Below, piece by piece: positions 39,487 through 61,337 of a stretch of DNA of 64,000 nt. Position numbers and translations under genes: made by a program. Where the stretch lies: assembly GCF_000023465.1 (NCBI RefSeq), contig NC_014041.1, positions 5,064,188 to 5,128,187 of the forward strand, given 5' to 3'. Origin of the DNA: Zunongwangia profunda SM-A87. GTDB lineage: Bacteria > Bacteroidota > Bacteroidia > Flavobacteriales > Flavobacteriaceae. Each line of letters starts with the position of its first letter. Position 1 is the first letter of the stretch. Below the pieces are notes generated by a model. The model saw only the letters and a program-made list of their open reading frames with translations, was not told the DNA's origin and did no database searches.

Positions 39487-42345
39487 CTATTGTAATTTTA
39501 AATTCAACCTTGCAAACAAATAACGACCGCCTATACCAAACTGGGCGTTTCTGGGCCAGTCGAATCTTCCGCTACTTCGGTTATCCTCTATTCTATTTCT
39601 ATCGGGATATAAATCGAATAAATTGTTAGCCCCCAAGGTTAAATTAATCGATTCTGAAAAGTTATAGCCTACCGAAAGATCGGTTACTACTTTTCCTGAA
39701 TATACCTCTTGATTCGCCAATGTATTGGAAGGTTGTGTTACCTCACCAAAATACACATTCCGAAGGAAGAAATTAAAGTCTTCTACAGTAAGAACATTGG
39801 TTAAATTAATCTTCGTTCTGGGTACCGCTTCTTCTAAATAAATACGATTATCTTCAGAAAAATAGGTATCCAATTTATTTTGTAATAAAGGTGACGCATG
39901 AATATCGCCTACCCGTTGTGTCCTGGTAAAAGTTCCTGCAAGATCATTTTTCAACTTCCAGCCATTATCGAAATAGGTGTTTTGTGTAAGAACAATATCT
40001 AAACCTTTGGATTCGGTATCTATGGCATTCGCAAAAAAGGCTGCTGCTTCAGCATTCGCACTTCTAAGAATCTGACTAATTTCCGAATCCGGATCATCAT
40101 CACTAAAACGTCCTGTATATACTACACGATCATCAATCGCTACAAAATAAGCATCGGCGGTAATGGTTAAATTGGCATCCGGGATTTTAGCGGTTATTCC
40201 TAAACTGGCACTTTTCGAGGTTTCTTCTTTTAAATCTGGAATGCCCAGCAATTTCGCCGCCCTACTATCATTAGAAAAAGTTCCTACCTGTACCGGATTT
40301 CCTTCATCATTAAAAACCGTAGAAGTAGAATTATAATAAATCTGGTGTAGCGAAGGTGCTCTAAAGCCTGTATTCACCGCTGCTCTTAAATTTATATTAT
40401 CAGTAAGTTTATATCGGGAAGCTACTTTAAAATTTAAGGTAGATCCAAAATCTGAATAGTTTTCGAATCTTCCGGCAAAGGTGAGTAGCAAGTCTTTAGT
40501 TACATCGGCTTCAAAATCGGCATAGGCCGCTACACTATTTCGCTGTCTGGAGATAGCATTATCAGGACTAAAACCGGGAAAAACCTGTGCTCCTCCTGCT
40601 CTGGCATTTCCGAAGAAATCTGTAGTAGGTTGCTGGCTGGCATTGGTGATAACAGTGCCGTCCGCAGTATATTGCGCATAAGATTTTTCTTCCCCGGCAA
40701 TGATATTATAATTTTCCAGGCGATACTCACCGCCAAAAGCAACATTAAAGCCTTCGAACAATTGTGGAAAAAACTGCGAAACATCAAGATTGGTCGTATT
40801 TTGAGAAAAAGAAAATCCGCCGGCATCAAAACTGGTAGGACTGGTACCTTCTAAAGAAGCATTAGAGGTATTGTCTATAAAATACATAAACTCATTTTCT
40901 CCCCAGGTATTACTAAAATCGACATCCCAATCGCCTACTTTACCACGTATTCCGGCAGCAAAAGATTTGTCACTGATTTTAGAGTTTATTTCTGGTAAAA
41001 ACCCGTTGATATAATATGGGGTATAGGTACGGCTTTGATTGGGTAATCTATAAAATCCTGCCGCATTTCCTTTTCTGGAGCTTAGCCCACTAAACGCATA
41101 AAGCTCGGTTCCATTATCATCTAACGGTAGGGCAAAATTAGCGAATAAACGACCGCCACGTAAAGCAGACTGCCCTACTCTCATATTAAAATCAGATCGG
41201 TTTAAACCTCTTGCAGCCAATTCCTCTTCAGTTACATTTCTCCCTAACAGGTTTTGTAAGGTAGCCCGATCGTTCGCCTGAGCTATTTCATTTTTAAAAT
41301 CAGCAGAAAAATAATCCACCTCTTGTGCATAATTCTGAATTTGCTGATTGGATAAACTGCTAAGATCTGCATTATCCTGATAGGCCTGCCACTCTACCGC
41401 ATTATAAGCATTAAATATACTTCCTTCCCAGGCTTTCATGCGGTTATAAGCATCACGGTAATCAAAATCTCCTGAAAAGTTTATAAAACCACCTTTATCT
41501 CCTAACGGAATACCATAACTAGCGGCGACATTGATACTTTCACCATCCATACCGCCGGTTTGCTCATTGGCATTTCTGGATACATTAGCCCCGGTGGTTA
41601 CATTAATATTAAGCGTATTCACCTCATCTTTCAAAACCACATTTATTACGCCGGCAATCGCATCAGATCCATACTGGGCAGCGGCTCCATCTCTTAGTAC
41701 TTCAATTCTCTTGATTGCCGCAGCAGGTATTGCATTTAAATCGGTACCTACACTCCCTCTACCAAAAGTTCCGTTTACATTAATCAGGGAAGAGGTATGG
41801 CGACGTTTCCCATTAATCAATACCAAAACCTGATCGGGCCCTAAGCCTCGCAACGAAGCGGGATCGATATGGTCTGTTCCATCTGATAAAGATTGGGTTG
41901 TAGAGGTAAACGAGGGGGCTACATAATTAAGAATCTGGTTAACATTTACCTGGGGTACCGAGACCTGTAGCTCTTCTACATCCAAAACATCTACGGGTAC
42001 GGCAGACTCGGTCACCGTCCTACTTCGATTCCTCGAACCTACCAGCACCACTTCTTCCAGGTTTGTACCGCTTACCAACTGCACGTTGATAGTGGTGGTG
42101 GTAATTTCTACCTCCTTTTTTTCGAAACCTACGAAGGTAAAAACAAGTGTTTGCCCTAATTCAGCTTTAATATTGAAATTTCCGTCGAAATCGGTAACCG
42201 TTCCGGTTTGTGTTCCTTTAAGCTGGATGGTCACTCCTGGTAAGGCTTGTGCATTCTCATCGGTGACATTTCCGGTAATACTTTCCTGTTGTGCGCTTAA
42301 GCTTAAACTTATTAGCAGGAAAAACAGGGTAAAAATTCTATTCAT
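39487..42345 (-). CDS. TonB-dependent receptor (952 aa)
   Basis: A signal peptide (about 1-18) is followed by a carboxypeptidase-regulatory-like domain (about 22-95), a plug (about 115-245; LRGLGPDQVLVLINGKRR and IERIEVLRDG-like IKRIEVLRDGAAAQYGSDAI) and a 22-strand-type barrel ending FGIGGRYLFARLNLKL. It is not of the SusC type and no SusD adjoins it. The substrate cannot be named. It lies downstream of the gamma-glutamyltransferase gene on the same strand with a 135-bp gap holding a repeat, so an operon is uncertain. Confidence 0.92.
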   Translation of the reverse strand: MNRIFTLFFLLISLSLSAQQESITGNVTDENAQALPGVTIQLKGTQTGTVTDFDGNFNIKAELGQTLVFTFVGFEKKEVEITTTTINVQLVSGTNLEEVVLVGSRNRSRTVTESAVPVDVLDVEELQVSVPQVNVNQILNYVAPSFTSTTQSLSDGTDHIDPASLRGLGPDQVLVLINGKRRHTSSLINVNGTFGRGSVGTDLNAIPAAAIKRIEVLRDGAAAQYGSDAIAGVINVVLKDEVNTLNINVTTGANVSRNANEQTGGMDGESINVAASYGIPLGDKGGFINFSGDFDYRDAYNRMKAWEGSIFNAYNAVEWQAYQDNADLSSLSNQQIQNYAQEVDYFSADFKNEIAQANDRATLQNLLGRNVTEEELAARGLNRSDFNMRVGQSALRGGRLFANFALPLDDNGTELYAFSGLSSRKGNAAGFYRLPNQSRTYTPYYINGFLPEINSKISDKSFAAGIRGKVGDWDVDFSNTWGENEFMYFIDNTSNASLEGTSPTSFDAGGFSFSQNTTNLDVSQFFPQLFEGFNVAFGGEYRLENYNIIAGEEKSYAQYTADGTVITNASQQPTTDFFGNARAGGAQVFPGFSPDNAISRQRNSVAAYADFEADVTKDLLLTFAGRFENYSDFGSTLNFKVASRYKLTDNINLRAAVNTGFRAPSLHQIYYNSTSTVFNDEGNPVQVGTFSNDSRAAKLLGIPDLKEETSKSASLGITAKIPDANLTITADAYFVAIDDRVVYTGRFSDDDPDSEISQILRSANAEAAAFFANAIDTESKGLDIVLTQNTYFDNGWKLKNDLAGTFTRTQRVGDIHASPLLQNKLDTYFSEDNRIYLEEAVPRTKINLTNVLTVEDFNFFLRNVYFGEVTQPSNTLANQEVYSGKVVTDLSVGYNFSESINLTLGANNLFDLYPDRNRIEDNRSSGRFDWPRNAQFGIGGRYLFARLNLKLQ

Positions 42346-42480: not shown

Positions 42481-44193
42481 TTAAAAACCGATAGCGGTAT
42501 CATCACCTCTAGGGTCGGCCCCTCCTTCTAAATTACCGTTGGGTAATACTTTTATCGCATCTACTTTACCGATAATCCTAGATTCTTTTTGATTAATTTT
42601 ATATCCTTTTTGCTGCAGTTCTTGTATGGTCTCTTTTGCAAATCCTTCAGGCTCCATCATAATTTCGTCTGGCAACCACTGATGGTGAAAGCGTTTAGCT
42701 GAAACGGACTCCTGCATCGATAAATCGAACTCGGCAACATTTAAAAAGGTTTGTAACACTGAAGTAATAATGGTAGAACCTCCCGGAGATCCTACTACCA
42801 TCCATAATTTCCCGTTTTTTTCAATAATTGTGGGTGTCATCGAACTCAGCATTCGTTTTTCCGGTTCAATCGCATTAGCTTCAGCTCCTACCAATCCAAA
42901 CATATTAGGGACTCCTGGTTTTAGGCTGAAATCATTCATTTCATTATTCATAAAAAAGCCTAATTCAGGAATATATAATTTTGACCCATAGGCTCCGTTT
43001 AAAGTAGTAGTTACAGAAACAGCATTGCCCATCGCATCTACAATCGAATAATGGGTTGTTTCATTACTCTCATAACCGCTAATGGTACCATGTGTTATTG
43101 TTGAAGACGGCGTTGCCTGCTCAAAACTGAAATCCGACATTCTATCACTTAAATAAGCATCGGCTAATAAACTGTCCTGCGGTACATCATAAAAATCGGA
43201 ATCTCCAAGGTAAAAACTCCTGTCGGCGTAGGCCCGGCGTTCTGCTTCGGTTAATACCTGTATGTATTTTGCCGAATTTGGTTGATATCCGGCTAATGGA
43301 TAAGGCTCGATCATTTTTAAAATTTGTCCTAATACGATTCCACCACTAGAGGGAGGCGGCATCGAAATTATTTGATATTCTTTATAGGGAATACGAATAG
43401 GATCACGCCATTTGGCCTCGTATTTCAGTAAATCTTCTTCAGTGAGAATTCCGCCCCGCTGTTTAAGGAATTCCAGCATTTTTTTTCCTGTCTCACCAGC
43501 ATAAAATTCGCTTCGTCCGTTGGCAACTATTCGCTTCAGGGTATGCGCTAAGGCTATATTTTTAATGGTATCCCCTTTTTTATAAGCTTTTGTATAAAGA
43601 GTCATATCCTGATTCACTTGCAGTAAAACATCACGATATTTTTGTAATCGCTCCTGCTGTTTTTGCGTCACAATCACTCCTTTTTCGGCTAATTCGATAA
43701 CCGGTTGTACTATTTCCTGAATGGGTAAACTGCCAAATTTTTCATGTACTTTAAAAATTCCGGCAATGGTTCCCGGTACTCCCGATGCCATTGCCCCTAA
43801 GGTACTTTTACCTTCGATAACTTCGCCATTTTCGTCCAGATACATATTTTTTGAAGCAGCCAGAGGCGCTTTTTCGCGATAATCTAAACTTCCTGTGTTG
43901 CCATCAGCAGTACGATAGACCATAAAACCCCCACCTCCTAAATTACCGGCAAAAGGATAACTTACCGCCAGGGCCATTTCGGTAGCCACCATAGCATCGA
44001 AGGCATTTCCGCCTTTTTTCATGATATCGACGCCTATTTTGGAAGCTTCTCTTCTGGCAGAAACAAGCATTGCTTTTTCAGCCACTTCCCCGGTTTTATT
44101 TTTTTCTGTTGTTTCTGGTAATTTCGATTTACAGGAAACAAACAACAAACCCGATAGAATTACTAGGTTAATAGAAAACGAAATTTTAGTCAT
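42481..44193 (-). CDS. ggt: Gamma-glutamyltransferase (lipoprotein)
   Basis: This 570-residue enzyme hydrolyses or transfers gamma-glutamyl groups from glutathione and related peptides. A lipoprotein signal ends at C21 (LFVSCKS). Family motifs are NLGGGGFMVY (84-93), DYREKAP (104-110) with substrate-binding R106, and the autoprocessing site ETTHYSIVD (378-386) with nucleophile T379. The precursor would cleave before T379 into two chains. SMPPPSSGGI and GSPGGSTIITSVLQ are also conserved. Its location beside muropeptide genes raises the possibility that it handles gamma-D-Glu peptides, which is inference. Confidence 0.95.
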   Translation of the reverse strand: MTKISFSINLVILSGLLFVSCKSKLPETTEKNKTGEVAEKAMLVSARREASKIGVDIMKKGGNAFDAMVATEMALAVSYPFAGNLGGGGFMVYRTADGNTGSLDYREKAPLAASKNMYLDENGEVIEGKSTLGAMASGVPGTIAGIFKVHEKFGSLPIQEIVQPVIELAEKGVIVTQKQQERLQKYRDVLLQVNQDMTLYTKAYKKGDTIKNIALAHTLKRIVANGRSEFYAGETGKKMLEFLKQRGGILTEEDLLKYEAKWRDPIRIPYKEYQIISMPPPSSGGIVLGQILKMIEPYPLAGYQPNSAKYIQVLTEAERRAYADRSFYLGDSDFYDVPQDSLLADAYLSDRMSDFSFEQATPSSTITHGTISGYESNETTHYSIVDAMGNAVSVTTTLNGAYGSKLYIPELGFFMNNEMNDFSLKPGVPNMFGLVGAEANAIEPEKRMLSSMTPTIIEKNGKLWMVVGSPGGSTIITSVLQTFLNVAEFDLSMQESVSAKRFHHQWLPDEIMMEPEGFAKETIQELQQKGYKINQKESRIIGKVDAIKVLPNGNLEGGADPRGDDTAIGF

Positions 44194-44494: not shown

Positions 44495-45703
44495 CTACTC
44501 CGTAAAAATATCCTCATCTTTTAAATATTGTAATCCTTTATCTTTTTCGTTTAGAATCCTTTTGGTACGCAGGTATCGGTTATAATTATATTCATCGAAA
44601 TCTGTGGCAGTGGTATCCATGGTGCTGATATGTACATCGCCCATAGAATGTATAAATTTATGATCACCAATCCACATCCCTACGTGAATCACGCGTTCTT
44701 TAGTAGAATCTGTGGCAGGTCTTCCAAAAAACAATAAATCACCCGCAACAAGATTTTCGAAATTCCTGGTTGAATCTACTAAAACTCCGGTATGTACTTG
44801 TTGAGAAGCATCACGTGGAATCACCATTCCATTTAAAAAATATACCGTTTTGGTAAAACCGCTACAATCTACTCCTTTTGGCGAGGTACCGCCCCATAAA
44901 TAAGGAAGGCCCATTAATTTTTCGCCGGTCATCACCAGTTCTTCACCATCAACATCTAAATCAGCTAACCAGGTTTTATAAGGTTTTGCATCTGTCTTTG
45001 GAACAAAAGCGCTTCTACCGTCTGGATAAGCAATCTCGTAGAAATTTCCTTGTTCAGCTGTCAGTTCTAAAATATCTCCGGCCACAAGGTCTGAAACCAC
45101 CTCAGCATTATTTTTAGCCGATTTTAGCGATTTTCCGTAAGGATTCAGGTAAATTAACTTGTCCTTCGATTTCCAGTCAGCAAACTGTTCTTTGGTCATA
45201 TTCTGGATACCACCATAATCTACCCAGGCCAAATACCCGTCTGGCGTTTGAATATAGTACCAGCTTCCCTGTTTTTTATACACTTTTACCGGCATTCCCA
45301 AGGTAGTTTGCGTTACCAGTTGCGCGGCATGGCGTGGTTCTTCGCGAAGATTCGCTACCGAAATTTTAATCACACCCATCGTTTGATTCTCTAAACCTTC
45401 AGCATCGGGTAAGGTCTGAATATTTGCAGTGTATTTTATGCCTTTTTGGTTTAGTGTATTTTCTAGATCTTTAGCGGCCTCAGGGAGGTTGGTTTCGCCT
45501 TCAATATTAAATCCGTCGGTTTCTTTTTTAGCTTCAAAATCGAATAAAGCTACCCTTCCATCGGGAGCATACACATTTTTTAAACTATCAATGACTACCT
45601 GCGCTTCGTTTTTTTCTTCAACAGTAGTTTCGGTTTTCTCATTACAACTTGCTAGCACTGCTGCTAAAACCAATGTCCAAAAACTATATTTTTTTATCTT
45701 CAT
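44495..45703 (-). CDS. NlpC/P60 endopeptidase lipoprotein with SH3 domains
   Basis: This 402-residue protein has a lipoprotein signal ending at C20 (AAVLASC). Two bacterial SH3-like domains follow (about 105-165 and 185-240), then an NlpC/P60 cysteine peptidase (about 255-375) with catalytic C280 in GVDCSGF, H340 in HVGMWIG and polar H352. Enzymes of this layout cut gamma-D-Glu-diamino acid bonds in stem peptides, for example in L-Ala-gamma-D-Glu-DAP. It is 17 bp downstream of the dipeptide epimerase gene, whose substrate L-Ala-D-Glu would be its product. That pairing is strong functional evidence. Confidence 0.93.
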   Translation of the reverse strand: MKIKKYSFWTLVLAAVLASCNEKTETTVEEKNEAQVVIDSLKNVYAPDGRVALFDFEAKKETDGFNIEGETNLPEAAKDLENTLNQKGIKYTANIQTLPDAEGLENQTMGVIKISVANLREEPRHAAQLVTQTTLGMPVKVYKKQGSWYYIQTPDGYLAWVDYGGIQNMTKEQFADWKSKDKLIYLNPYGKSLKSAKNNAEVVSDLVAGDILELTAEQGNFYEIAYPDGRSAFVPKTDAKPYKTWLADLDVDGEELVMTGEKLMGLPYLWGGTSPKGVDCSGFTKTVYFLNGMVIPRDASQQVHTGVLVDSTRNFENLVAGDLLFFGRPATDSTKERVIHVGMWIGDHKFIHSMGDVHISTMDTTATDFDEYNYNRYLRTKRILNEKDKGLQYLKDEDIFTE

Positions 45704-45720
45704 TTTTACTGATTTTCAAT

Positions 45721-46740
45721 CTATTCAAATTTAAACAATTTTACTCCAGTGCCATTTTCTGAAGGATAAATGACTTTTTCTGAAGTAATTTTTACACCCG
45801 TTGCGGTATCATTTTTTAAAAGCAAAGCACCATCCATATCTACATAATCCAACATGGGCGCGAGTTGCGCAATGGCTGAAATCCCAACGGTCGATTCGGT
45901 CATACAGCCTACCATGGTTTTTAATCCCAGGGCTTTTGCTTTTGCAATCATTCGTAAGGCAGGTGTAATTCCGCCACATTTTGTAAGTTTAATATTTACA
46001 CCATGGAAATATTCGGCACACTTTTCAACATCACTTTCTACAATACAGCTTTCGTCGGCAATTACCGGTAAGGCAGAATTTTGATAGAGCAACTTCTGTC
46101 CTTCAAGATCATCTACCGCTAAAGGCTGCTCTAAAAACTCCACATTTAATTCTTTTAAAACATGGCTGTTTTCAATCGCCTGATAGGCTGCCCAGGCTAC
46201 ATTGGCATCGATCCTAAAAACCGAATTGGTATGCTTTCGAAGCTCTTTTATAATTTCGATATCATGATCGGTTCCTAACTTGATCTTGTATAATGGCCAC
46301 GGAAAATCTTTAATCTTACGAATCATCTCTTCGGTTGAAGCAATTCCAATCGTATAACTTGTTTGCGGTACCTTGGCAGGATCTAAATTCCACAACTTAT
46401 AAAGCGGTTGTTGCTTTCGCTTTCCATAAAGGTCATGCAACGCCATATCTAAGGCACATAACGCGAAAGTTTCGGTTTTTAATTCAGGATAAATTTTTTC
46501 CCATATGATTTCCGGAGGTTCTTCAATATGATTTTCGACAATTTGCTCCACTTTTTGTAAAGCCTTCATCATACTTTCTACCGTAACTCCGTAATACGAA
46601 GTTGCGGCCGCTTCCCCAAAACCGGTAACCCCATCGTGCGATACTGAAACTACCAAACTTGGCTGCACATCACGCGAAGCATGACTAATCCTAAAGGTGT
46701 CTTTTAACTGCAGTTGATATTGGTGATATTCGATCTTCAT
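45721..46740 (-). CDS. L-Ala-D/L-Glu epimerase (enolase superfamily)
   Basis: This 339-residue protein has an enolase-superfamily capping domain (about 1-120) and barrel. The catalytic KIKLG lysine pair (K152, K154), metal ligands D178, E204 and D229, and a second lysine in NIKLTKCGG (K251/K254) are all present. The C-terminal DMD (301-303) is the DxD motif that binds the dipeptide amino group in L-Ala-D/L-Glu epimerases. It turns L-Ala-D-Glu from murein into L-Ala-L-Glu for use as nutrient. It lies between the GHL10 and NlpC/P60 genes with 9- and 17-bp gaps. Confidence 0.93.
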   Translation of the reverse strand: MKIEYHQYQLQLKDTFRISHASRDVQPSLVVSVSHDGVTGFGEAAATSYYGVTVESMMKALQKVEQIVENHIEEPPEIIWEKIYPELKTETFALCALDMALHDLYGKRKQQPLYKLWNLDPAKVPQTSYTIGIASTEEMIRKIKDFPWPLYKIKLGTDHDIEIIKELRKHTNSVFRIDANVAWAAYQAIENSHVLKELNVEFLEQPLAVDDLEGQKLLYQNSALPVIADESCIVESDVEKCAEYFHGVNIKLTKCGGITPALRMIAKAKALGLKTMVGCMTESTVGISAIAQLAPMLDYVDMDGALLLKNDTATGVKITSEKVIYPSENGTGVKLFKFE

Positions 46741-46749
46741 TTTTTAAGC

Positions 46750-48411
46750 TTATTCTAAAATAATTTCTTTAAAATCACTTTGATTTCCGGTACGGTCTAC
46801 CGCCGTCATGCCTATTTTAGACAATTTTATTTTCTTTTCTCCTACCAGGTAGGAAAGCGTGGTTTTAAGTTCTGAAAACTGCGCTTTATTTAGGATTTTA
46901 AAATCCCATTTACTGCCTTCATACTGAAAATACAATACCCATCTAAAAACATCATTTTGATCGGGATGCTCCCAGGAAATTCTTAGTGTATTTCCATCAA
47001 GCTGAGTAAAAACTTCTGGTGATTTTGGTGCTTTATTATCCATCCACGGACTTGGCGGTACCAATGCCGGTTTTCTAAAATAACTTTCGGCTAAAGCTTT
47101 TTCAGTTTCTTTATCGTTCATCAGGGCTTTAAGATTCCAGAGTACGGCGCCAGGATCATCTGCCAGCATTCCCCGGGTAATCATTAGCTGATTAAACAAT
47201 TCGTTCTCATAACCTTCTTCTTCGATAAGCCCGGCGTTTATCCCCGGCCAGATATGTCTATCTTTGGTATTTTCGCTTTCCCACCAGTGTAATAGCACCG
47301 GGAAACTCTGCGCAATCTGATCTGTTTTCCAGTATAACTGCGGAGTGAGATAATCTACCCAGCCTTCATTAATCCATTTTTTAGCATCGGCATATAGTTT
47401 TTCATACTGGTCATAACCGGCAATGGATTGTGGATACCCGGGACGCCAGATCCCAAACGGGCTAATTCCGAATTTCACAAAATTCTTCTCTTTTTTGACC
47501 ACTTTGCCTACACGTGCAATAAAATCATCAACATTTTTACGACGCCAGTCTCCCCTACTTAATTTTCCGCCGGTATTTTTATAGGTATTCCATGTTTGAT
47601 CGTCTGGGAAATCTTTGCCGCCGTTATAGCTATCGTATGGATAAAAATAATCGTCAAAATGAATACCATCTACATCGTATCGCTTTACCAGGTCTTCTAC
47701 CACTGCAGTGGTACGATCCTGAACATCCTTACGAGCAGGATCCATCCAGTACATTCCGTTTTGTAGTTTCACGACCATCTCTGGATTGGTTTTTACAACG
47801 GAAGCTGCGCTGATTTCTCCCCCGGTGGTATGATAGGCCCGGTACGGATTTAACCAAACATGAAGTTCCATCCCGCGTTTATGGGCTTCGTTAATCCAAA
47901 AAGTAAGCGGATCGTAAAAAGGTTGAGGTGCTTTTCCCTGCTGCCCGGTTAAAAAATACGACCAGGATTCGATATCACTTTGGTATAAGGCATCGGCTTG
48001 TGGACGTACCTGAAAGATCACTGCATTATAATTATGATTCGCTAAAAAATCCAGTAATTTTATCGCTTCGCCCTGTTGCTGTGCGGTTGGCAAGCCAGAG
48101 CGTGACGGCCAGTTGATATTGGCTACTGTGGCAATCCACGCCGCCCTGAATTCAGCCACATCTAGTGGAGGTTCGCTTTTTATAATTTCTTCTTTTACCG
48201 TAACTTCTTCTGGTAATTCTTCTTTTGTGACCTCAGCAGGTTTTGTGGTATCAGGCTGTTCTTCCTTTTCTTCTACAGGCATTGGGTTCTCTACAACTTC
48301 TGGCTGATTTTTTGGCGTTGAAGATTGTACTGTTTGCTTCGTTTTACAGGAGGAAAAAAGCAGGGAAAATAATACTAATACTGCTGCTGAGTAGGAAATC
48401 GTAGTTTTCAT
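46750..48411 (-). CDS. GHL10-family glycoside hydrolase lipoprotein (DigH/YngK-like)
   Basis: From the chosen ATG (48411-48409) the protein has 553 residues and a lipoprotein signal ending at C22 (LLFSSCK). A longer frame to 48522 exists, but its extra 37 residues would hide the signal. A Pro/Glu/Lys-rich linker precedes the GHL10 barrel (about 90-425), with EFRAAWIATVANINWPS, NAVIFQVRPQADA, DGIHFDDYFYPY and YLTPQLYWK, and a Fn3-like domain at the end. E. coli DigH of this family cleaves peptide-free peptidoglycan strands, which fits the operon. The gap upstream to DUF4397 is 88 bp, the downstream gap 9 bp. Confidence 0.9.
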   Translation of the reverse strand: MKTTISYSAAVLVLFSLLFSSCKTKQTVQSSTPKNQPEVVENPMPVEEKEEQPDTTKPAEVTKEELPEEVTVKEEIIKSEPPLDVAEFRAAWIATVANINWPSRSGLPTAQQQGEAIKLLDFLANHNYNAVIFQVRPQADALYQSDIESWSYFLTGQQGKAPQPFYDPLTFWINEAHKRGMELHVWLNPYRAYHTTGGEISAASVVKTNPEMVVKLQNGMYWMDPARKDVQDRTTAVVEDLVKRYDVDGIHFDDYFYPYDSYNGGKDFPDDQTWNTYKNTGGKLSRGDWRRKNVDDFIARVGKVVKKEKNFVKFGISPFGIWRPGYPQSIAGYDQYEKLYADAKKWINEGWVDYLTPQLYWKTDQIAQSFPVLLHWWESENTKDRHIWPGINAGLIEEEGYENELFNQLMITRGMLADDPGAVLWNLKALMNDKETEKALAESYFRKPALVPPSPWMDNKAPKSPEVFTQLDGNTLRISWEHPDQNDVFRWVLYFQYEGSKWDFKILNKAQFSELKTTLSYLVGEKKIKLSKIGMTAVDRTGNQSDFKEIILE

Positions 48412-48499
48412 AAAATTAAATAGGCATCGCACAATATTAAACAAAAGAAAGAGATATAGAAATGAATCTATTCTCTTTCTTGAGCAAACTAAACTGAAA

Positions 48500-49291
48500 T
48501 TATCTATCCCTCCAGTAGTCAATATGACTTGAACCTGGATCTTCAGTATACGTCCCTCTTATCTGCGTGGTATAAACTCTTCCTAAACTTGCTAAAGTTA
48601 ATCCATGCTCTAAAAACGACTCTGATTCCTGAGGATCGTAATCTGTTCCTGAAGGAAATACTTTAAAGGTGTAACTGCCCGGTGCTAACTCTGTATATTC
48701 TCCAGAACTTTTATAAGGTATTCCCTGTCCTAAAGAAATAACGCGGGCATCCTCTGCAGGCGAATTTTCAGTTGCTGGTACTGCTGCTCTAATGGCATAA
48801 ACATCTACACTAAATGGAATATTTGCCATGGTATTCACAAATCTCCAGTAAATTAAATCGTGATTAGGTTCTGGTAAATTGTCCTTAATAAAGGCGATTT
48901 CATAATTCTCTGAAGTTCCTACCAGGTACGCCGAATAATGATTTTGTGCTTCTGTAGTAATACTTGTTGAGGCCAGGTTTTGTGCCTCTAAAGTTCTTAC
49001 CTCCAATTCCCCACTGCCGGAAGGAATAACAGCATAAGCATTACTCGGATAAACTGAAGTATAGTCTAAAGCCTGTTCCTGGTCTTCACCAGAACTATTT
49101 TCCGCAGTTACTTTCTCATCATTAAAAAAGAATCCTGCATTTGGTGCGTCTTCTGCATGAAAAAAGAATTTCACGTAACTCATATCCTCAGCTACGGGTT
49201 CTGTAACCTCGGGAATGGCATTTTTTTCGCATCCCAGAACGAGTAAAGCTAAAAATGCTATGATTAAACAATTTGCTGATATTTTTCTCAT
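48500..49291 (-). CDS. DUF4397-domain lipoprotein
   Basis: This 263-residue protein has a lipoprotein signal ending at C21 (LLVLGCEKN) and a region (about 135-255) with the DUF4397 pattern: RFVNTMANIPFSVDVYAIR, GIPYKSSGEYTELAPGSYTF and a final beta strand. DUF4397 proteins are secreted beta-rich proteins of unknown function. It is the third gene after susC and susD, with 9 bp to susD. That is the place where many Bacteroidota loci keep a surface glycan-binding lipoprotein, so such a role is a reasonable inference. Confidence 0.85.
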   Translation of the reverse strand: MRKISANCLIIAFLALLVLGCEKNAIPEVTEPVAEDMSYVKFFFHAEDAPNAGFFFNDEKVTAENSSGEDQEQALDYTSVYPSNAYAVIPSGSGELEVRTLEAQNLASTSITTEAQNHYSAYLVGTSENYEIAFIKDNLPEPNHDLIYWRFVNTMANIPFSVDVYAIRAAVPATENSPAEDARVISLGQGIPYKSSGEYTELAPGSYTFKVFPSGTDYDPQESESFLEHGLTLASLGRVYTTQIRGTYTEDPGSSHIDYWRDR

Positions 49292-49300
49292 AATCTTTTT

Positions 49301-50926
49301 TTATTCGTTGATACTAAACCAGGTTTCGTAAGTATGGTAATCTTCTTCAAAAGCATTTAATTTTTCCAGTGCCTCCTGATTCCACATATATTCTGAATTG
49401 TATCTTGGTCTTGCTCTATAAGCAGGATTCCCGTTATTAGCTTCAAACAAAGGATCTGGCAGCGTAAACCCCTGATAAACGGCTTCGCTTTCATCTTCTA
49501 CACCTAAATCGTAGTGATATCTTCTCATATCAGACCAGGTTTCGAAGAACCCCCATCCCCAGGTCGCGATATATTTTTGAAGCATAATTTTTGAAAGTGT
49601 TAATCCAGCAGAGGTTTCGGGAAAAACAACATCACTACTTTCCATTAATGCTCTTCTTTGATCGTAAATTTCCTGGTCTGGCGAGTAGGGTCTGGCAAAA
49701 TCTAAATGTGCATTTACGCCCTCTTTATAGGCTTCTAATGCTATTGCCATATCGCCAGCCAGGTAAGCTGCTTCAGATTTTATAAATTGTAATTGAGAAA
49801 AGGTCATTAGTGGAAATTGGGCATCATTATTAAAGAAATAAATTTGCGGTGAAGGATTACTGCCTCTATAGCCTACTTCATTCCAAAAGTTTTTAGGTAC
49901 CATAGCAGCTTCAGCAGTTGTCCATTCGTTAATACCAACCTCTGGTGAAATTCCACGATATAATCCATCGGGCGAGGTAGCTAGCATTGATGTAATTCTG
50001 GGATCATTTAAATATTGTTCTTCCGCAGTAAAGACCGGATCCTGTCCTAATAAGTCGGGATCCTGAAATGCAGGATTGCTCCCGTTAAGTAATCCTAAAA
50101 TAAATTTTGTTTGCCTGTAATAACCAATATTACCTCTTAGCGGCCCAAAGAAATTCGTGTTCGCGCTAACGGTTCCCTGGAATCTGATTAAAGCATTATC
50201 CTGATTACCCACAAGTGCCTGATCTACATACTCAATAACCTGCTGAGGATCATAACTGCTTTTATTGGTTAATCGATGCGCATTGATCGCTAAAAGTCCA
50301 TAGGCCAGTTTTTTCCATCTTTCTTTATCTCCCTGATAAATTAAATCTGCTTCTGTTAATCCAGAATCTTCCGGACTTAAACCATCTGTTCTATCCAAAC
50401 TTTCTATGCCTAGTAAAAGTAATCGCTGAATTTCTTCGTAGGCTACAGATTGCTCATCATAATCAAAAGTTCTTCTATCTGGATCGAATGCCTGAGTAAC
50501 AATTACAGGACCGTGATAATCTGTAAGCATTTGCCAGCCAAAAGCTCTTAAGATATATCCTACTCCTACAAATCCATATTTCTCATTAAGTTCTCCACTT
50601 CTAATCATGTCTGAAAGGTTGTACCCCATACTCCAGTATACGGCTCTCCACAGTTGTGCATAAGAATCTGATAACGGATTAGAATGTAAGTTTAACGAAT
50701 ATGCATTCCCAGAGGTATACGCCCAGTTTTGGGTGTAAAAGCCTGTAAATCTTCCATCCCATTGTATAGCTACTGCAAGCTCTGATTCTATTTGAGGAAG
50801 AAAAAGTTCTGGTTGTAAAAGCGCATCTGGACCATTGGGATTGGTGTTTACATCCAGATAATCCTCGCAACTAATGCTGCATGTACCCATTAATAAAAGT
50901 AATGCTATATATATTCTATTTTTCAT
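49301..50926 (-). CDS. SusD/RagB-family lipoprotein (locus 1)
   Basis: This 541-residue surface lipoprotein has a signal ending at C20 (CSISCEDYLDVNTNPNGP), the usual SusD opening. The body has SusD-like helical repeats, including YGFVGVGYILRAFGWQMLTD, GDKERWKKLAYGLLAINAHR and FIKSEAAYLAGDMAIALEAY (TPR-like). SusD proteins cap the SusC barrel and bind the nutrient. It starts 11 bp after the susC stop. The family appears closer to SusD-like_2. Confidence 0.93.
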   Translation of the reverse strand: MKNRIYIALLLLMGTCSISCEDYLDVNTNPNGPDALLQPELFLPQIESELAVAIQWDGRFTGFYTQNWAYTSGNAYSLNLHSNPLSDSYAQLWRAVYWSMGYNLSDMIRSGELNEKYGFVGVGYILRAFGWQMLTDYHGPVIVTQAFDPDRRTFDYDEQSVAYEEIQRLLLLGIESLDRTDGLSPEDSGLTEADLIYQGDKERWKKLAYGLLAINAHRLTNKSSYDPQQVIEYVDQALVGNQDNALIRFQGTVSANTNFFGPLRGNIGYYRQTKFILGLLNGSNPAFQDPDLLGQDPVFTAEEQYLNDPRITSMLATSPDGLYRGISPEVGINEWTTAEAAMVPKNFWNEVGYRGSNPSPQIYFFNNDAQFPLMTFSQLQFIKSEAAYLAGDMAIALEAYKEGVNAHLDFARPYSPDQEIYDQRRALMESSDVVFPETSAGLTLSKIMLQKYIATWGWGFFETWSDMRRYHYDLGVEDESEAVYQGFTLPDPLFEANNGNPAYRARPRYNSEYMWNQEALEKLNAFEEDYHTYETWFSINE

Positions 50927-50937
50927 CTTTTTTTATT

Positions 50938-53900
50938 TTAAAATCCTGCTCTTATACCAATATTGTAACCTCTTGGTAAAGGAAAGTTACCATAATCAAG
51001 ACCTACACCTCCAGCTCCTCCAACTGCAGCAGAGTTTCCGTTTCCTACCGGATCCAAACCAGAATAATTAGTTACCAAGAATAAATCTGTACCGGTTAAG
51101 AACACACTTGCATTTTTAAGAACATTGGTTTTTTTCAACAATTTGGAAGGGAAATTATAGGAGAAAGTGACATCCCGTAACCTCATCCAATTGATATCTT
51201 TTTCTATAAAACTTTGATAAGGATAAATTGCAGACCAATAGCTGGAATTTCTGGAAAGGTCTATTGGTATATTATTTTGAGTAGGGTTTGAAGTATTTTC
51301 GAGTCCGTCCTTTAAAACGCCGTCTACAATTCTTGGTGTTTCTCTATTCAATGTTCTTTTACTTAATCCTCTTGTGGTTAAATAATATTCCGTTGCATTG
51401 TATACGTCTCCGCCAACTCGAAAATCCAATAAGAAATCTAATGCAAATTGCTTGTATCTAAACGTATTAGAAAGGCCTATTCTAAAATCCGGATTGCGAT
51501 CTCCTACGACTACCCATTCTTCAGTATTTAAAATTGGTAATCCTGAAGATGGGTTTACCAAAACTTCACCCGCTTCATTTCTTTGATAATCATATCCTGT
51601 GAAGGTAGTTAAAGGTCCGCCTACCCTGGATCCAACCCTAACATTTCCATAAAGCCAGGTATCTGAATTATAAAATTCTTCTACATCTGCCGGAAGACTT
51701 ACTAACTCACTCCAGTTTTTGGTAAAGTTTGCCCTTATATCCCAGGAAAAATCTTTATTAAGAACAGGTGTTCCGTTTAATTGAAGTTCTATACCTTCAT
51801 TTTTTATCTCTCCTGCATTAAAGGTCATTAACACAAAACCGGTAGCATAACTCAATCTCAGATTTTGTACAATCTGGTCTTCAGACTTCTTATTGAAATA
51901 CGTTGCATCTAGACTTAATCTATTATTAAAAAATTTAAGTTCGGTTCCGAATTCATAAGATGTGGTCATCTCTGGCATTAAATTTAAACTTGGGCCGGTA
52001 AACCCGTATTTAAAACCTCCACCGGTTGTTTGTGCCGGTTCGTAATAAGGTCTTATACTATATGGACGCGCATCTTTACCTACCTGAGCGATAGATCCTC
52101 TTAACTTCCCATAGGTTAAAACATCGCTGTCTTTAAACATCCCTAATTCTGAGAAAATGAAACTTAAACCTGCAGATGGATAGAAGAAAGAGTTATTTTG
52201 TACGGGCAATGTAGAACTCCAGTCATTTCTTCCGGTTAATGTTAAAAATAGCAGGTCGTTATAGCCAATATTCAAGCTACCAAAAGCGCCTACTAATCTT
52301 CTTTCGGTTAAATTATTAAATGCTCTATGGGTTTCGAGATCTGTATTGTTGATAGACCAAAGATCTGGCGCCTGAAAATCCTGGCCACTGGCCGCAGCAC
52401 TAAAAGTATTATAATCGTATACCGCACTTCCTAATTTAAAATCTATGCTTATATCTTTATCGAAAATTGTTTGAGTATGAAATTGTGCATAATATTGATA
52501 CGTTAAATTTCTGGTCGTAATAAGTGCCTGATCAAACAAGCCACCATAATTTATCCCCGTATTTGATTCCGGATGTCTTACGATAGTATTTTTCTGGGTA
52601 AAATAATCCACTCCCACCTGTCCTACCATTCGAAGCCAATCTGTAGGTTCTGCTGTTACTCGAGTATTTAATTTATATCGATCTACTAAAGAATTAAATT
52701 GATTACTATTTACATTAAAAAAAGCATTTTCTACAGCATCTGCATATTCCGCATAATTACGACGATCACCTCCCTCTGTTAAATATACACTGGCATCATC
52801 TGTAGAAGGCCATAATAATAAATGTAACAAGGGCCCTCCACTACCTCTAAAAGCCTGTTCATTATCAGATCTTGTGTAATCAAAAGTTACATCTGCGGTT
52901 AGAAAATCTAAAAAGTTAGCTGTTACTGCTGAGGATAAATTTAGCTTGTCTAAACTTGTATTTGGTACAAAACCCTGAGCATTGGTATTTGAAGCAGAAA
53001 CTCTATACTGTGTTTGTTCAGATCCTCCAGAAAGGGATATATTATGTTTTTGAGTGAAGGCATCCTGAAAAAAGTTCCCTATGTTATCGTAAAACCGGGT
53101 TCCCTCTGGATATTCAGCGCCAAAATAATATAAACTTTCATCAGCATCACTGGTAAACCCATTGGCTCCTCTACCATATTTTTGCTGAATTTCCGGATAT
53201 TTAACGATTCGGTCTAATCTAAAACTATTACTATAATCTAGTTTACTAACCCCGGCTTTTCCTCTTTTTGTAGTGATCACAACAGCTCCAGAAGCAGCTT
53301 CTATTCCGTATAAAGCCGAAGCCTCAGGCCCTTTAAGGATAGTAATATTCTCAATATCCTCAGGATTAATATCTGCTCCCCTGTTGGTAAAATCGACCCC
53401 GCGATTGTTCAAAGCAGTTCCGCTATTTAATGACGAAGCAAATACGCCTGTAGAGGTTGTAGCGTTACTAATTGGTAAACCATCTACCACAAATAAGGGT
53501 TGGTTACTGCCGCTTAATGAGCTTATCCCCCTTATAACCATAGATGTTGAAGCTCCCGGTAGCCCTGAAGTTGAATTAATTTCTACCCCGGGAACCCTAC
53601 CTGCCAGTGCATTAATAAAATTCTCTCGTTGTGTTTGCGCAACTGTTTCACCTTTAACTTCGGTTACTGCATAACCCAGTGCTTTTTTCTCCTGTTTGAT
53701 TCCAAGGGCAGTTACGACCACCTCATCCAAACTTTCCCTGTCTACAGCCATCGTGACAAGAAATTCCCTTTTATCCCCAACTCTAAGTTCTTGTTTTTTA
53801 AAACCGACTGAAGAAAATACCAATACAACATCACTATCTGGAATAAATAGCGTAAAGTTTCCATCAAAATCGGTTACAGCACCCAAAGACGAATCTTTTA

Positions 53901-54036
53901 CACGTACCGTAACCCCTGGAAGCGGAATTTTATCCTCATCCATTACTTTTCCTGATATTCCAATCTCTTGAGCCCAACCGGTAGCTGAAATCAGCAAAAG
54001 CATAAAGAAGAATGGTCTACATAGTTGTTCTTTCAT
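50938..54036 (-). CDS. SusC/RagA-family TonB-linked outer-membrane transporter (locus 1)
   Basis: This 1032-residue transporter has a signal peptide (about 1-22), a carboxypeptidase-regulatory domain (about 25-105; GAVTDFDGNFTLF), and a SusC plug with ALAGRVPGVEI, GSNQPLFVVDGLPIS and PEDIENITILKGPEASALYG, then the barrel ending NIGIRAGF. It imports oligomers captured by SusD. It heads a run of six minus-strand genes (susC, susD, DUF4397, GHL10, epimerase, NlpC/P60), and all gaps but one are under 20 bp. The likely ligand is a peptidoglycan fragment, inferred from these partners. Confidence 0.95.
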   Translation of the reverse strand: MKEQLCRPFFFMLLLISATGWAQEIGISGKVMDEDKIPLPGVTVRVKDSSLGAVTDFDGNFTLFIPDSDVVLVFSSVGFKKQELRVGDKREFLVTMAVDRESLDEVVVTALGIKQEKKALGYAVTEVKGETVAQTQRENFINALAGRVPGVEINSTSGLPGASTSMVIRGISSLSGSNQPLFVVDGLPISNATTSTGVFASSLNSGTALNNRGVDFTNRGADINPEDIENITILKGPEASALYGIEAASGAVVITTKRGKAGVSKLDYSNSFRLDRIVKYPEIQQKYGRGANGFTSDADESLYYFGAEYPEGTRFYDNIGNFFQDAFTQKHNISLSGGSEQTQYRVSASNTNAQGFVPNTSLDKLNLSSAVTANFLDFLTADVTFDYTRSDNEQAFRGSGGPLLHLLLWPSTDDASVYLTEGGDRRNYAEYADAVENAFFNVNSNQFNSLVDRYKLNTRVTAEPTDWLRMVGQVGVDYFTQKNTIVRHPESNTGINYGGLFDQALITTRNLTYQYYAQFHTQTIFDKDISIDFKLGSAVYDYNTFSAAASGQDFQAPDLWSINNTDLETHRAFNNLTERRLVGAFGSLNIGYNDLLFLTLTGRNDWSSTLPVQNNSFFYPSAGLSFIFSELGMFKDSDVLTYGKLRGSIAQVGKDARPYSIRPYYEPAQTTGGGFKYGFTGPSLNLMPEMTTSYEFGTELKFFNNRLSLDATYFNKKSEDQIVQNLRLSYATGFVLMTFNAGEIKNEGIELQLNGTPVLNKDFSWDIRANFTKNWSELVSLPADVEEFYNSDTWLYGNVRVGSRVGGPLTTFTGYDYQRNEAGEVLVNPSSGLPILNTEEWVVVGDRNPDFRIGLSNTFRYKQFALDFLLDFRVGGDVYNATEYYLTTRGLSKRTLNRETPRIVDGVLKDGLENTSNPTQNNIPIDLSRNSSYWSAIYPYQSFIEKDINWMRLRDVTFSYNFPSKLLKKTNVLKNASVFLTGTDLFLVTNYSGLDPVGNGNSAAVGGAGGVGLDYGNFPLPRGYNIGIRAGF

Positions 54037-54064: not shown

Positions 54065-54107
54065 CAAACTTATCGTTTAAATATCTTAAATGCAATATTT
54101 AATTGCA
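54065..54107 (-). promoter_or_regulatory. Promoter of susC locus 1 with overlapping inverted repeat
   Basis: On the minus strand the -7 element is TAAGTTTG (54072-54065), 20 bp from TTG (54095-54093). It lies 29 bp before the susC ATG. The inverted repeat TGCAAT-n5-ATTGCA (54091-54107) overlaps the -33 element and could be an operator. The word ATTGCAAAAT occurs farther upstream at 54165-54174 and again before the second susC. The geometry equals that of the second susC promoter. Confidence 0.6.
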
Positions 54108-54606: not shown

Positions 54607-54640
54607 TGACCTTGCCTGAATAAGGTTGCCTTTTTTCAAG

Positions 54641-55510: not shown

Positions 55511-55521
55511 TCGGAAATATT

Positions 55522-55879: not shown

Positions 55880-55925
55880 TGTTTAAAAGTTTAAGAAAAA
55901 GGGCAACTTATTTCAGTCTTAGTCA

Positions 55926-56700: not shown

Positions 56701-56742
56701 ATAAAGCTTGCCCAAAATTAATTAATCCTGAGCAAGCTTTAT
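56701..56742 (-). terminator. Terminator downstream of susD locus 2
   Basis: ATAAAGCTTGC (56701-56711) and GCAAGCTTTAT (56732-56742) form a perfect 11-bp stem with a 20-nt loop. On the minus strand it is followed by GTTTTAATAG. It lies 20 bp beyond the susD stop. Confidence 0.75.
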
Positions 56743-56762: not shown

Positions 56763-58262
56763 TTATTCTTCTACATCCCACCAAACCGGTGTGGTTAACC
56801 TAACTGCGGGATTGTTATCTGGCATATTTTCGTAATTTCTGTCTTCTTCATTATATTCATACATCATCGCTTGCAACCAGTCGTCTTCGTTTGGAAATAG
56901 ACTAATGTTTACGTTATCCGGACGCTCCAAGCCAGGATAAATATCAGCACTATAATCCACTCTTCTAAAATCTACCCAGGTTTCTGGATTGAGCATATTG
57001 GCAATATATTTCTGAACAAAAATCTGGGAAAGATCAAAGTTAGCCTGGCCTATTTCAGTATCAATTTTAGTCATATAGGTTGTAATCTCTTCAGAAGAAA
57101 CATTTAGTTTTTGAAGGTCTGCTTCTACACCGGTTTTATAAGCAGCATAGGCCCCAGCAATATCACCATTTCTAAATCTCGCTTCAGCTTCAATAAATTT
57201 CACTTCAGAATACGTCATCATATAAGTTGGTGAATCTGGCGAAGTATAAAATCCTCCATTCCCTAACGAATAATCGTCGGCAAGCTCAGCATCTACACCT
57301 GCACCGGTCTTCACTCCCTGATAGCCTCCGTTTACCGCCTCAGGAACAATGATAGACAGTCTTGGATCTTCAAATTCTTCCTCGATAGTTAATGGATCTT
57401 TAAGCAAGTTCACAAAAAACTCTGAGAAATAATCGAATCGTGTAGAACCATATCCATTCACGCTAAAAGGCTGATTATCATTCACGGCGGTTCCACCACC
57501 ATAAGATATTAAAGCATTGTCCTGATTAGAGGCCAAACCATTTTGAGTTGCTTGGATTACAGCCTGGGGATCGTAGGCAAATTCACCGGACGACTTTTTG
57601 GTAAGATGGTTTAAATACCGTGCTTTTATAGAATAAGCAAAACGTTTCCATTGCGCAAGATCTCCATTGTAAAGAATATCACCCTCTGCAGCTTGCAGGG
57701 AAATTTCGCTGTCCATATCGAGTTCGGCAATTGCTTCATCCAATAGTGTAAAAATTAATTGATATACTTCTTGTTGTGATACAAATTCGGGTTCCAGCTC
57801 TATCGTTCTTTCGGGATTATAACTATCATCTGTAACTATAGAACCATATTGATCAGTAGCCATTCCAAAAAGATAAGCTCTTAGAATCTTTCCTACCGCC
57901 GTATAGTGAGGAGAATTATATTCTTCTCCCAGATAGATCAAATCTGCGGTATTAGGTAAAGCATAAACATACACGTTTTGCCATAAGAAATAACTTCCCG
58001 TGGTTAAAAACGTATTCCAGGATTCCGAATAATAGGCAGGCACATTTTGAGAACCATACTGTACCACACCCAGTACTTCTCTAGTCCCTCTGTACTGAGC
58101 GGTAGCTACCGTATTTTCTATAGCTCCCTCAATACGATATTGCGGCGCCAATCCAGTATTTGTTGGATTTGTTAGCGAATTATTTACGTCTAAATAGTCC
58201 TGGCAACTAAAAAATGTTGTGACAAAGCCTAAGAGGCAAAAATATTTATATCTCTTTTTCAT
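56763..58262 (-). CDS. SusD/RagB-family lipoprotein (locus 2)
   Basis: This 499-residue lipoprotein has a signal ending at C20 (TTFFSCQDYLDVNNS). SusD-like features include VGKILRAYLFGMATDQYGSI, GDLAQWKRFAYSIKARYLNH and FIEAEARFRNGDIAGAYAAY. It begins 6 bp after the susC stop and is the last gene of a two-gene operon closed by a terminator. Its partner susC resembles locus 1, so a related substrate is likely. Confidence 0.92.
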   Translation of the reverse strand: MKKRYKYFCLLGFVTTFFSCQDYLDVNNSLTNPTNTGLAPQYRIEGAIENTVATAQYRGTREVLGVVQYGSQNVPAYYSESWNTFLTTGSYFLWQNVYVYALPNTADLIYLGEEYNSPHYTAVGKILRAYLFGMATDQYGSIVTDDSYNPERTIELEPEFVSQQEVYQLIFTLLDEAIAELDMDSEISLQAAEGDILYNGDLAQWKRFAYSIKARYLNHLTKKSSGEFAYDPQAVIQATQNGLASNQDNALISYGGGTAVNDNQPFSVNGYGSTRFDYFSEFFVNLLKDPLTIEEEFEDPRLSIIVPEAVNGGYQGVKTGAGVDAELADDYSLGNGGFYTSPDSPTYMMTYSEVKFIEAEARFRNGDIAGAYAAYKTGVEADLQKLNVSSEEITTYMTKIDTEIGQANFDLSQIFVQKYIANMLNPETWVDFRRVDYSADIYPGLERPDNVNISLFPNEDDWLQAMMYEYNEEDRNYENMPDNNPAVRLTTPVWWDVEE

Positions 58263-61200: not shown

Positions 61201-61337
61201 ACCCGAACGTTCACTCCTGGAAGTGGAATTTGATCCTCATCCACAACCGTTCCTGAAATTTCTTTATCCTGTGCCCAAATTTGTATTGAAAACAATAAAA
61301 ATAGGAACAAGACTGGTTTTTTGAATTGTCTTTTCAT
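58269..61337 (-). CDS. SusC/RagA-family TonB-linked outer-membrane transporter (locus 2)
   Basis: This 1022-residue transporter has the same layout as that of locus 1: signal peptide (about 1-22), regulatory-like domain with IGTVTDFDGNFSLS, SusC plug with GLQGKIAGVSIT, GNNQPLFIIDGIPMD and PEDIESISVLKGPAAAALYG, then the barrel ending LGIRFKF. It is clearly a paralogue of 50938-54036. It is divergent from a DeoR-type regulator gene, which probably controls it. The neighbouring murQ and GH20 genes suggest amino sugars or muropeptides as substrate. Confidence 0.95.
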   Translation of the reverse strand: MKRQFKKPVLFLFLLFSIQIWAQDKEISGTVVDEDQIPLPGVNVRVKNSNIGTVTDFDGNFSLSIPDTDGVVIVFSSIGFTTKEVTVGNRTSLNISMEVDTESLNEVVVTAFGIERNKKSLGYAIQDIKAEELQEGNQKNVVSGLQGKIAGVSITNSGGAPGSSASIFIRGGTSITGNNQPLFIIDGIPMDNSTGASTTVASINRAADLNPEDIESISVLKGPAAAALYGIQAADGAVVITTKNGKPGVSSITYSGTFSIDNILGTPDVQQRYGQGQQILSTDGFNYNTDSPFTWGPQISSAIQVYDHIKDFYKTAYTQDHNISYSGGTKNSTMYLSIGDLSQQGVIESTSYDKTSFKINTSSNVTDNLTIGASANYIVTEIGSTRQGSVSGSSFNSLLSYPVNVDINDYLNEDGSQSTFYSDQQFDNPYWSLENSPNDNKVNRLLGILNLSYDFLNDFNLSYKLGTDYYREFNKMVIGQGSLIENRSDGYINQSEREFRRTTSNLILRYTKEITEDFELEALVGNTVEDVRNHSIYTYGNGFLAPGITSISNVAQENQSVTEVILRRRNIGVFGELKLSYRDAFFLNVTGRNDWSSTLPQSDWSFFYPSIGGSAIITEIFEQNGNDITSDNGLSYLKLRATYAQAGKDAPSPGLLQTLVSTNINPLATSAYAFSGLGVGNPELVPEFTDTYEVGFDARFFQNRLAVDFGMYYAQSTDQILQDIRVPPSSGTFLATLNGGEIVNKGLEALITAKIFPRQNEFQWNMTYNLGVNRNEVKGLPGQLDEVYNSDSWTFQNSAAGAAILGGSLFGLRGYRAVRTDAGELVIGSNGLPQLETVIFDDVNRLPDWTLGITNSLSYKNFDFTFLLDLVQGQEAYNATKSALAFYGLADETLNRNPGGTRLVEGVTANGSPNTREVTEMDYYQQYYSQDAENFIEDASFTRLRYATLTYNFSKDFLEKLNIASAQISLTGRNLFTITDYSGVDPEVNTFGAGVQGTGSVGIDNLGTPNTRGFDLGIRFKF

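Follow-up and report, generated by a model that had tools for sequence, protein, structure and literature searches.

A SusCD-type locus of Zunongwangia profunda SM-A87 with a probable role in the uptake and breakdown of peptidoglycan fragments

The final 64,000 bases of the 5,128,187-base contig NC_014041.1 of Zunongwangia profunda SM-A87, here called the window, contain a cluster of six genes in which a SusC importer, a SusD lipoprotein and a DUF4397 lipoprotein, together the trio, are followed by a GHL10 protein, a dipeptide-epimerase-like protein and an NlpC/P60 protein. Judged by gene families and gene order, the locus around this cluster would, with a probability of roughly 0.78, take up and break down peptidoglycan fragments, and the trio, which has cell-wall enzymes as neighbours in six further genera too, probably imports cell-wall fragments as food. 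The six genes are, from SusC onward:

50938..54036, minus strand: SusC, the TonB-dependent outer-membrane importer of the trio (TIGR04056)
49301..50926, minus strand: SusD lipoprotein of the trio (PF12771, 116.8 bits)
48500..49291, minus strand: DUF4397 lipoprotein (PF14344; AlphaFold 2 model with pLDDT, the predicted local distance difference test, of 80.5; found in all 22 named trio loci)
46750..48411, minus strand: GHL10 lipoprotein, DigH/Cwp19-like (PF02638, 207.9 bits; Cwp19, 5oq2, 234.6 bits)
45721..46740, minus strand: dipeptide-epimerase-like protein of the enolase superfamily (nearest solved chain 3iji, 231 bits)
44495..45703, minus strand: SH3b-NlpC/P60 lipoprotein, dipeptidyl-peptidase VI/YkfC-like (3npf, 3pvq, 3h41)

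The open reading frame (ORF) coordinates put all six genes on the minus strand and confirm the original prediction, made from the letters of the window, of one direction and successive gaps of 11, 9, 88, 9 and 17 bp from SusC to NlpC/P60, and Pfam supports each of the names it gave (in gene order TonB barrel and plug, SusD-like_2, DUF4397, GHL10, MR_MLE N- and C-terminal domains, SH3 with NLPC_P60). The gap of 88 bp requires the ATG at 48411 as start of GHL10, the ORF list having a TTG further upstream at 48522. With a TIGR04056 SusC (676.5 bits, cut-off 368.25) adjoining a PF12771 SusD across 11 bp, and with GHL10, GH20, GH3 and DeoR genes linked to them, the arrangement is that of a polysaccharide utilisation locus (PUL). 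The further proposal that this PUL-type locus is aimed at peptidoglycan gains good support from the linked MurQ, amidase, GH20 and DeoR genes and from the comparative context.

The original prediction had suggested a search for the same gene order in relatives. A scan with an alignment of the SusD gave 22 named trio loci in seven genera, namely Pontibacter (10), Gelidibacter (5), Zunongwangia (2), Gillisia (2), Salegentibacter (1), Cesiribacter (1) and a metagenome-assembled genome of Leeuwenhoekiella (1), all 22 of which contain SusC, SusD and DUF4397. A peptidoglycan enzyme (MurQ, GHL10, NlpC, epimerase, amidase or NamZ; E threshold 1e-10; about 20-22 kb per locus) lies in every one of them, and at least two kinds in 18, against none in 40 control stretches, each of 20 kb, at other SusD places of three genomes. 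Such a close trio is uncommon, as a SusD of this kind is found in 3 of 100 family genomes, the genome of the window included.

The control stretches derive from the genome of the window (G000, 27), from G149 (5) and from G219 (8), which possesses the second SusCD pair described below and lacks the trio. They leave out the trio, the second pair of the window and of G219, all places in G218 and some in G219; several overlap or touch each other (L143/L149, L146/L153, L135/L142 and L166/L167), and some of their SusD places do not reach the Pfam cut-off for PF12771. Three of the markers, NamZ, Ami2P and Ami3P, were derived from the test loci; with the markers of the window alone (MurQ, GHL10, NlpC, epimerase and amidase) the count is still 22 of 22, where L118 counts by an incomplete MurQ match at which its stretch ends and L116 by the amidase alone.

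Among the trio loci GHL10 is present in 20 and MurQ in 15, one of them partial (called ORFs only: 13 MurQ and 21 DUF4397), while the peptide pair of epimerase and NlpC is found in just four, and the glycan containing N-acetylmuramic acid (MurNAc) is therefore the common denominator. The emphasis that had been placed on the peptide enzymes thus stands for their presence in the window, and shifts to GHL10 and MurQ for what the loci share. The Pontibacter locus L120 combines NamZ, SusC, SusD, DUF4397, GHL10, GH9, a deacetylase, Amidase_2, a phosphoesterase, MurQ and an SSF symporter; NamZ relatives occur in nine of the ten Pontibacter loci and relatives of the L120 amidase in all ten. As SusC of these loci is 70-73% identical to that of the window and GHL10 only 37-39% (a second copy in L119 42%), conservation is stronger in the importer. 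The SusD is 64-91% identical to its counterparts in 18 aligned loci, the nearest named relatives being those of Zunongwangia atlantica and Z. pacifica (91%).

The locus exceeds the six genes. The predicted extent of six genes with one SusCD is borne out as far as it goes, but further genes belong to the locus, among them a second SusCD pair (pair 2) just upstream in the same direction. The upstream genes, of which GH20 runs into the contig end and the permease lies across it (L numbers denote loci and G numbers genomes), are:

56763..58262, minus strand: SusD2 of the second pair (PF12771, 189.1 bits)
58269..61337, minus strand: SusC2 of the second pair (TIGR04056, 670.3 bits)
61591..62346, plus strand: DeoR-family regulator, divergent from SusC2 (PF00455, PF08220)
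62368..63192, minus strand: MurQ, N-acetylmuramic acid 6-phosphate etherase (TIGR00274, 325.2 bits, cut-off 302)
63222..63998, minus strand: GH20 beta-N-acetylhexosaminidase, split by the contig end and continued at L095:1-764
L095:914-2173, across the contig end: NagP-like permease of the major facilitator superfamily

The NagP-like permease scores 402 bits on NF046060, under the cut-off of 625, and over the cut-off of gluP. As a side observation, an element AAAAAAGTTTCTTTTTTTTGTA kept between Zunongwangia and Salegentibacter is found in L095:2174-2628 and, in L098, L050 and L033, before the NagP-like gene.

In all six genus genomes sampled the epimerase is present and the series GHL10-epimerase-NlpC follows a SusCD, which at this locus is the trio only in one genome, pair 2 only in three and both in two; in three congeneric genomes SusD2 immediately precedes GHL10. 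The two importers can thus take each other's place before the same enzymes. This comparison overlaps with that of the named loci, as G218, G220, G149 and G131 correspond to L109, L108, L110 and L113. In Z. atlantica (L108) the series is unbroken and runs from the NagP-like gene over GH20, MurQ, DeoR, SusC, SusD, DUF4397, GHL10 and the epimerase to NlpC; the amidase is the next gene after NlpC and lies, like the NagB-like and ROK genes that follow it, on the opposite strand. In the window these belong to a group about 9-17 kb downstream of NlpC, listed here after two genes that lie in between:

42481..44193, minus strand: gamma-glutamyltransferase (TIGR00066, 563.1 bits)
39487..42345, minus strand: TonB-dependent receptor adjoining the gamma-glutamyltransferase (PF00593)
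34886..35845, plus strand: Amidase_2 lipoprotein, N-acetylmuramoyl-L-alanine amidase (PF01510, 110.2 bits)
32921..34840, plus strand: NagB-like glucosamine-6-phosphate deaminase with a PIG-L domain (NF002557, 1083.4 bits, cut-off 384)
31620..32909, plus strand: ROK-family NagC-like protein (NF047937, 211.6 bits, under the cut-off of 650)
30321..31436, minus strand: NagX/HGSNAT-like membrane acetyltransferase (PF07786; NF046061, 162.7 bits, under the cut-off of 480)
27362..30310, minus strand: GH3 glycosidase with a C-terminal beta-lactamase-family domain

The group comprises the amidase, NagB-like, ROK, NagX-like and GH3 genes. The Amidase_2 lipoprotein gene, which some 8.6 kb separate from the six genes, has relatives that adjoin the cassette in other species, and is found near the trio in 5 of the 22 loci. 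Separately, the gamma-glutamyltransferase and the adjoining TonB-dependent receptor (39487-44193) are close downstream of NlpC in four of the six genus genomes.

Several observations weigh against a peptidoglycan-directed locus. The Gelidibacter stretches keep only GH20 and GHL10, with an amidase in two of the five and without MurQ, and neither the five Gelidibacter nor the ten Pontibacter loci are independent of each other. Peptidoglycan markers occur in only 4 of 14 distant cassette loci, which belong to other families (scan at an E threshold of 1e-5), and the DeoR-SusC-SusD-DUF4397 cassette is thus wider than the peptidoglycan setting, which argues against a fixed ligand at that distance. 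The epimerase scores under every curated NCBIfam cut-off. MurQ is found in 235 of 249 family genomes and, being near-universal, marks on its own recycling and not import. Finally, the nearest solved relative of SusC, and of SusC2 likewise, is BT_2264 (5fq6_B, 429 bits for SusC), which we take to be a peptide importer.

The alternative that fares best is that the enzymes make up an operon which recycles turnover products of the own cell wall and that the SusCD only recaptures lost fragments, without feeding on foreign walls, which is possible but doubtful and shares its ligand with the preferred reading while differing in purpose. The genome contains one MurQ match, so that with a near-universal MurQ the locus supplies a housekeeping enzyme, and AnmK is encoded elsewhere. 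On the other hand, two importers together with an amidase, GH20 and a deaminase resemble a nutrient locus, several genomes have a second MurQ, and in some of them (for example G132, G250, G288 and G323) a SusCD lies beside MurQ.

The DUF4397 lipoprotein, a probable surface partner of SusCD, has no PDB sequence match up to an E value of 1, and its AlphaFold 2 model consists of two beta-sandwich domains. Over most of its length this model resembles the tandem extracellular domains of mammalian PepT1/PepT2, and its first domain the luminal domain of HGSNAT, of which a family member is also encoded in the window. The GHL10 lipoprotein, by its family a probable enzyme for the cleavage of peptidoglycan glycan strands, and the NlpC/P60 lipoprotein (277 bits to 3npf, 271.5 to 3pvq and 107 to 3h41, with Cys/His/His aligned in the alignments) carry lipoboxes that were read in the translations (SSC/KTKQ and SC/NEKT, respectively), as do SusD (SC/EDYL) and DUF4397 (GC/EKNA). 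Under the acidic lipoprotein-export rule SusD and DUF4397 would face outward and GHL10 inward.

The epimerase had been predicted as an L-Ala-D/L-Glu epimerase. Its KxK, D/E/D, Lys and DxD motifs are kept in the motif columns of 39 aligned proteins and correspond to the catalytic lysines, the metal ligands and the DxD motif, but against cut-offs of 500 and 343 its scores on the two models for L-Ala-D/L-Glu epimerases are only 145 and 143.7 bits, and we call it dipeptide-epimerase-like. No signal peptide is visible by eye, and it is therefore probably cytoplasmic. That it is instead an N-acetyl-D-glutamate racemase (DgcA) is unlikely. The DgcA model is its best NCBIfam match (228.9 bits, under the cut-off of 400), yet in 11 of 39 epimerase-like loci, those of the window and of the genus among them, the next gene downstream encodes NlpC/P60, the protein falls in a clade of eight with NlpC throughout (support 0.71), and the DxD motif is kept, though also in other groups. 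At one locus (L094, 36% identity) a neighbour is DUF1611-like by eye only, DUF1611 being a partner of DgcA. As a separate observation, L039, L044, L078, L085 and L093, which have an epimerase and lack NlpC, show a distant SusCD (29-35% identity) just after the epimerase and its PLP-transferase-like (pyridoxal phosphate) neighbour.

Rather improbable is that the trio imports chitin or other oligosaccharides of N-acetylglucosamine (GlcNAc) and shares with the adjacent cell-wall enzymes only the amino-sugar catabolic end. GH20, NagP-like, NagB-like, NagX-like and ROK proteins are general to GlcNAc catabolism, and GH9 and GH20 occur in 11 and 10 of the 22 trio loci. MurQ, NamZ, GHL10 and the muramoyl amidases, however, act on MurNAc material and some kind of them is present in all 22; among the annotated genes of the trio loci, where many genes are unannotated and chitinase was not searched for, there is no chitinase, and the single GH18 seen belongs to a MurQ locus whose SusCD is another one. 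Least of all do we expect the trio to be a peptide importer like BT_2264 with downstream enzymes that recycle the own wall, since SusC2 shares the nearest chain with SusC and the resemblance is thus unspecific, chains of the 5fq6 entry group are not among the ten SusD matches at E up to 0.1, and GHL10 is found in 20 of the 22 trio loci and the peptide enzymes only in 4.

The GH9 protein of the trio loci is an observation in its own right: it recurs in 11 of 22 (for example L033:15469-17280 and L120:14177-16036), in several with an SSF symporter alongside. GH9 is usually filed as cellulase, and for this recurrent protein a glucosaminidase role is worth considering.

Upstream of both SusC genes and after SusD2 the following elements were recognized:

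54065..54095, minus strand: flavobacterial-type promoter match TTG-N20-TAnnTTTG before SusC
61366..61396, minus strand: promoter match of the same architecture before SusC2
56701..56742, minus strand: weak terminator-like hairpin just after SusD2

The match TTG-N20-TAnnTTTG lies 59 bases before the start of SusC or SusC2 at eight of eight Zunongwangia sites compared, with similar bases after it; as the window has 17 matches to the pattern, both strands counted, the weight is on the conserved position and not on the match itself. In the 88-bp gap before GHL10 the pattern is absent, which together with the match before SusC would fit an operon starting at SusC. Terminator matches in the window are not above shuffles (12 against 13.5 expected) and sigma-70-type promoter matches are rarer than in shuffles (44 against 63.3). 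TTGCA-like boxes are found upstream of both SusCs in Zunongwangia, but not in four stretches upstream of the NagP-like gene, so that to read them as sites of a DeoR regulon is a guess; in the loci of Salegentibacter, Gelidibacter and Gillisia that were compared, no such boxes are visible by eye before SusC, and the promoter match is missing as well. An IS3-type element (54607-55928), with a 99.6% identical copy at 38018-39339, is inserted between SusD2 and SusC and leaves the SusC promoter match intact. Around both copies, dispersed repeats of 62-309 bp with 84-97% identity are located (37181-37839 and 54308-56506).

In the proposed peptidoglycan-directed mechanism, SusC, with SusD as lid, and the DUF4397 lipoprotein would import MurNAc-containing wall fragments across the outer membrane, and SusC2D2 would be another importer for substrates of this class. 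On the periplasmic side the amidase (34886-35845) would remove the peptides, upon which GHL10 could cut the bared glycan strands, GH20 and GH3 would trim GlcNAc, and the YkfC-like NlpC/P60 would free L-Ala-D-Glu. Sugars may enter the cytoplasm via the NagP-like permease. MurNAc 6-phosphate would be made by AnmK, which is encoded outside the locus in nine of nine genomes tested, or by a sugar kinase, for which a BadF-like protein of 285 aa is a weakly supported candidate (30.2 bits, just under the Pfam cut-off of 31.5); AnmK would serve if GHL10 yields anhydro-ends, as Cwp19 is said to release. MurQ and the NagB-like enzyme would then channel the products of MurNAc 6-phosphate into central metabolism and the epimerase would convert L-Ala-D-Glu into L-Ala-L-Glu. 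Regulation and induction may run through the DeoR repressor divergent from SusC2, which probably controls the SusC promoters and would answer an amino-sugar phosphate.

Beyond the close trio, relatives by profile at E up to 1e-70 are found in 15 of 395 phylum genomes, the genome of the window included. Among the 14 others, ten have a recognisable DUF4397 third gene and ten a DeoR gene close to the cassette; besides the four with peptidoglycan markers, two of them have weak Amidase_3 matches (24 and 38 bits), which were not counted, and one has GH20. In L187/L041 (G087:C12), a distant cassette near which NamZ is also encoded, about 9 kb separate the SusD from a relative of the epimerase.

To our knowledge, an importer for cell-wall fragments across the outer membrane of Bacteroidota has rarely been assigned. 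The original prediction called peptidoglycan a substrate seldom assigned to SusCD systems, but in this family a SusCD near MurNAc genes is not rare, with SusC in 11 of 20 MurQ neighbourhoods (NamZ in 8, DeoR in 7; scan at an E threshold of 1e-8), neighbourhoods which are the top of the list by identity to the MurQ of the window and not a random sample, of which several end at contig ends and one, L205, is probably the Gillisia trio locus L112 counted before. Of the 19 others, ten have a SusC other than that of the trio. Four SusD candidates from these loci are by Pfam two SusD_RagB, one SusD-like_2, the family of the trio, which nevertheless scores only 72 bits against SusD2, and one without a match, which is a SusD by position only. 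AnmK, GH3 and a NagX/HGSNAT-like gene belong to some of the MurQ blocks, and other SusCD pairs of the family occur with NamZ, MurQ, AnmK, SSF, GH3, NagB or DeoR.

Among these neighbourhoods a second class of MurNAc loci was seen (L188-L207, for example L192, L194, L196 and L198), the SusCDs of which are not close to the trio and the sets of which vary among DeoR, NagX-like or AnmK, SusC, SusD, NamZ, SSF, MurQ and GH3. The MurQ locus L196 encodes a GH18 with a Por secretion tail and a non-trio SusCD.

Different importers on one MurNAc salvage core are expected if the core sets the substrate. We lean slightly towards the wider proposal that the trio is the founding member of a class of outer-membrane importers which specialise in peptidoglycan fragments and are often tied to a DeoR sensor for amino-sugar phosphates, and that several SusCD pairs of the Flavobacteriaceae converged on a MurNAc salvage core of AnmK, NamZ, MurQ and GH3. 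If this is true, peptidoglycan, a sizeable part of marine organic nitrogen, is a regular PUL substrate across marine Bacteroidota. The conserved cassette of importer, enzymes and regulator provides named genes to delete and to purify, and SusC-SusD-DUF4397 beside GHL10, MurQ or NamZ is a signature for finding similar systems.

With respect to known systems, the locus resembles PULs of Bacteroidota in that SusC and SusD are neighbours and are clustered with a further lipoprotein, with glycan-active enzymes and with a regulator. Its enzymes, however, would act on peptidoglycan and its peptides, and its regulator is of the DeoR type, whereas PULs are usually governed by hybrid two-component or extracytoplasmic function (ECF) regulators. 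The SusCD complex BT_2261-2264 of Bacteroides thetaiotaomicron contains the nearest solved relative of its SusC, but its SusD finds other SusDs first, its DUF4397 protein is without PDB match and its context is one of peptidoglycan enzymes. MurNAc utilisation operons such as murTKQ of Tannerella and murQ-namZ-nagZ of Bacillus have counterparts here in MurQ, a sugar permease and, in this or sister loci, NamZ and GH3 relatives, while here SusCD importers, GHL10, an amidase and NlpC/P60 are built in. As in the YkfABC-type catabolism of muropeptide peptides in Bacillus, a YkfC-like SH3b-NlpC/P60 adjoins a dipeptide-epimerase-like gene, but here a lipobox marks the former as a lipoprotein, and its gene is linked to glycan enzymes and to import across the outer membrane. 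All parts belong to known families, and the combination of SusCD importers with a catabolic set for MurNAc and peptidoglycan is a variant of PULs.

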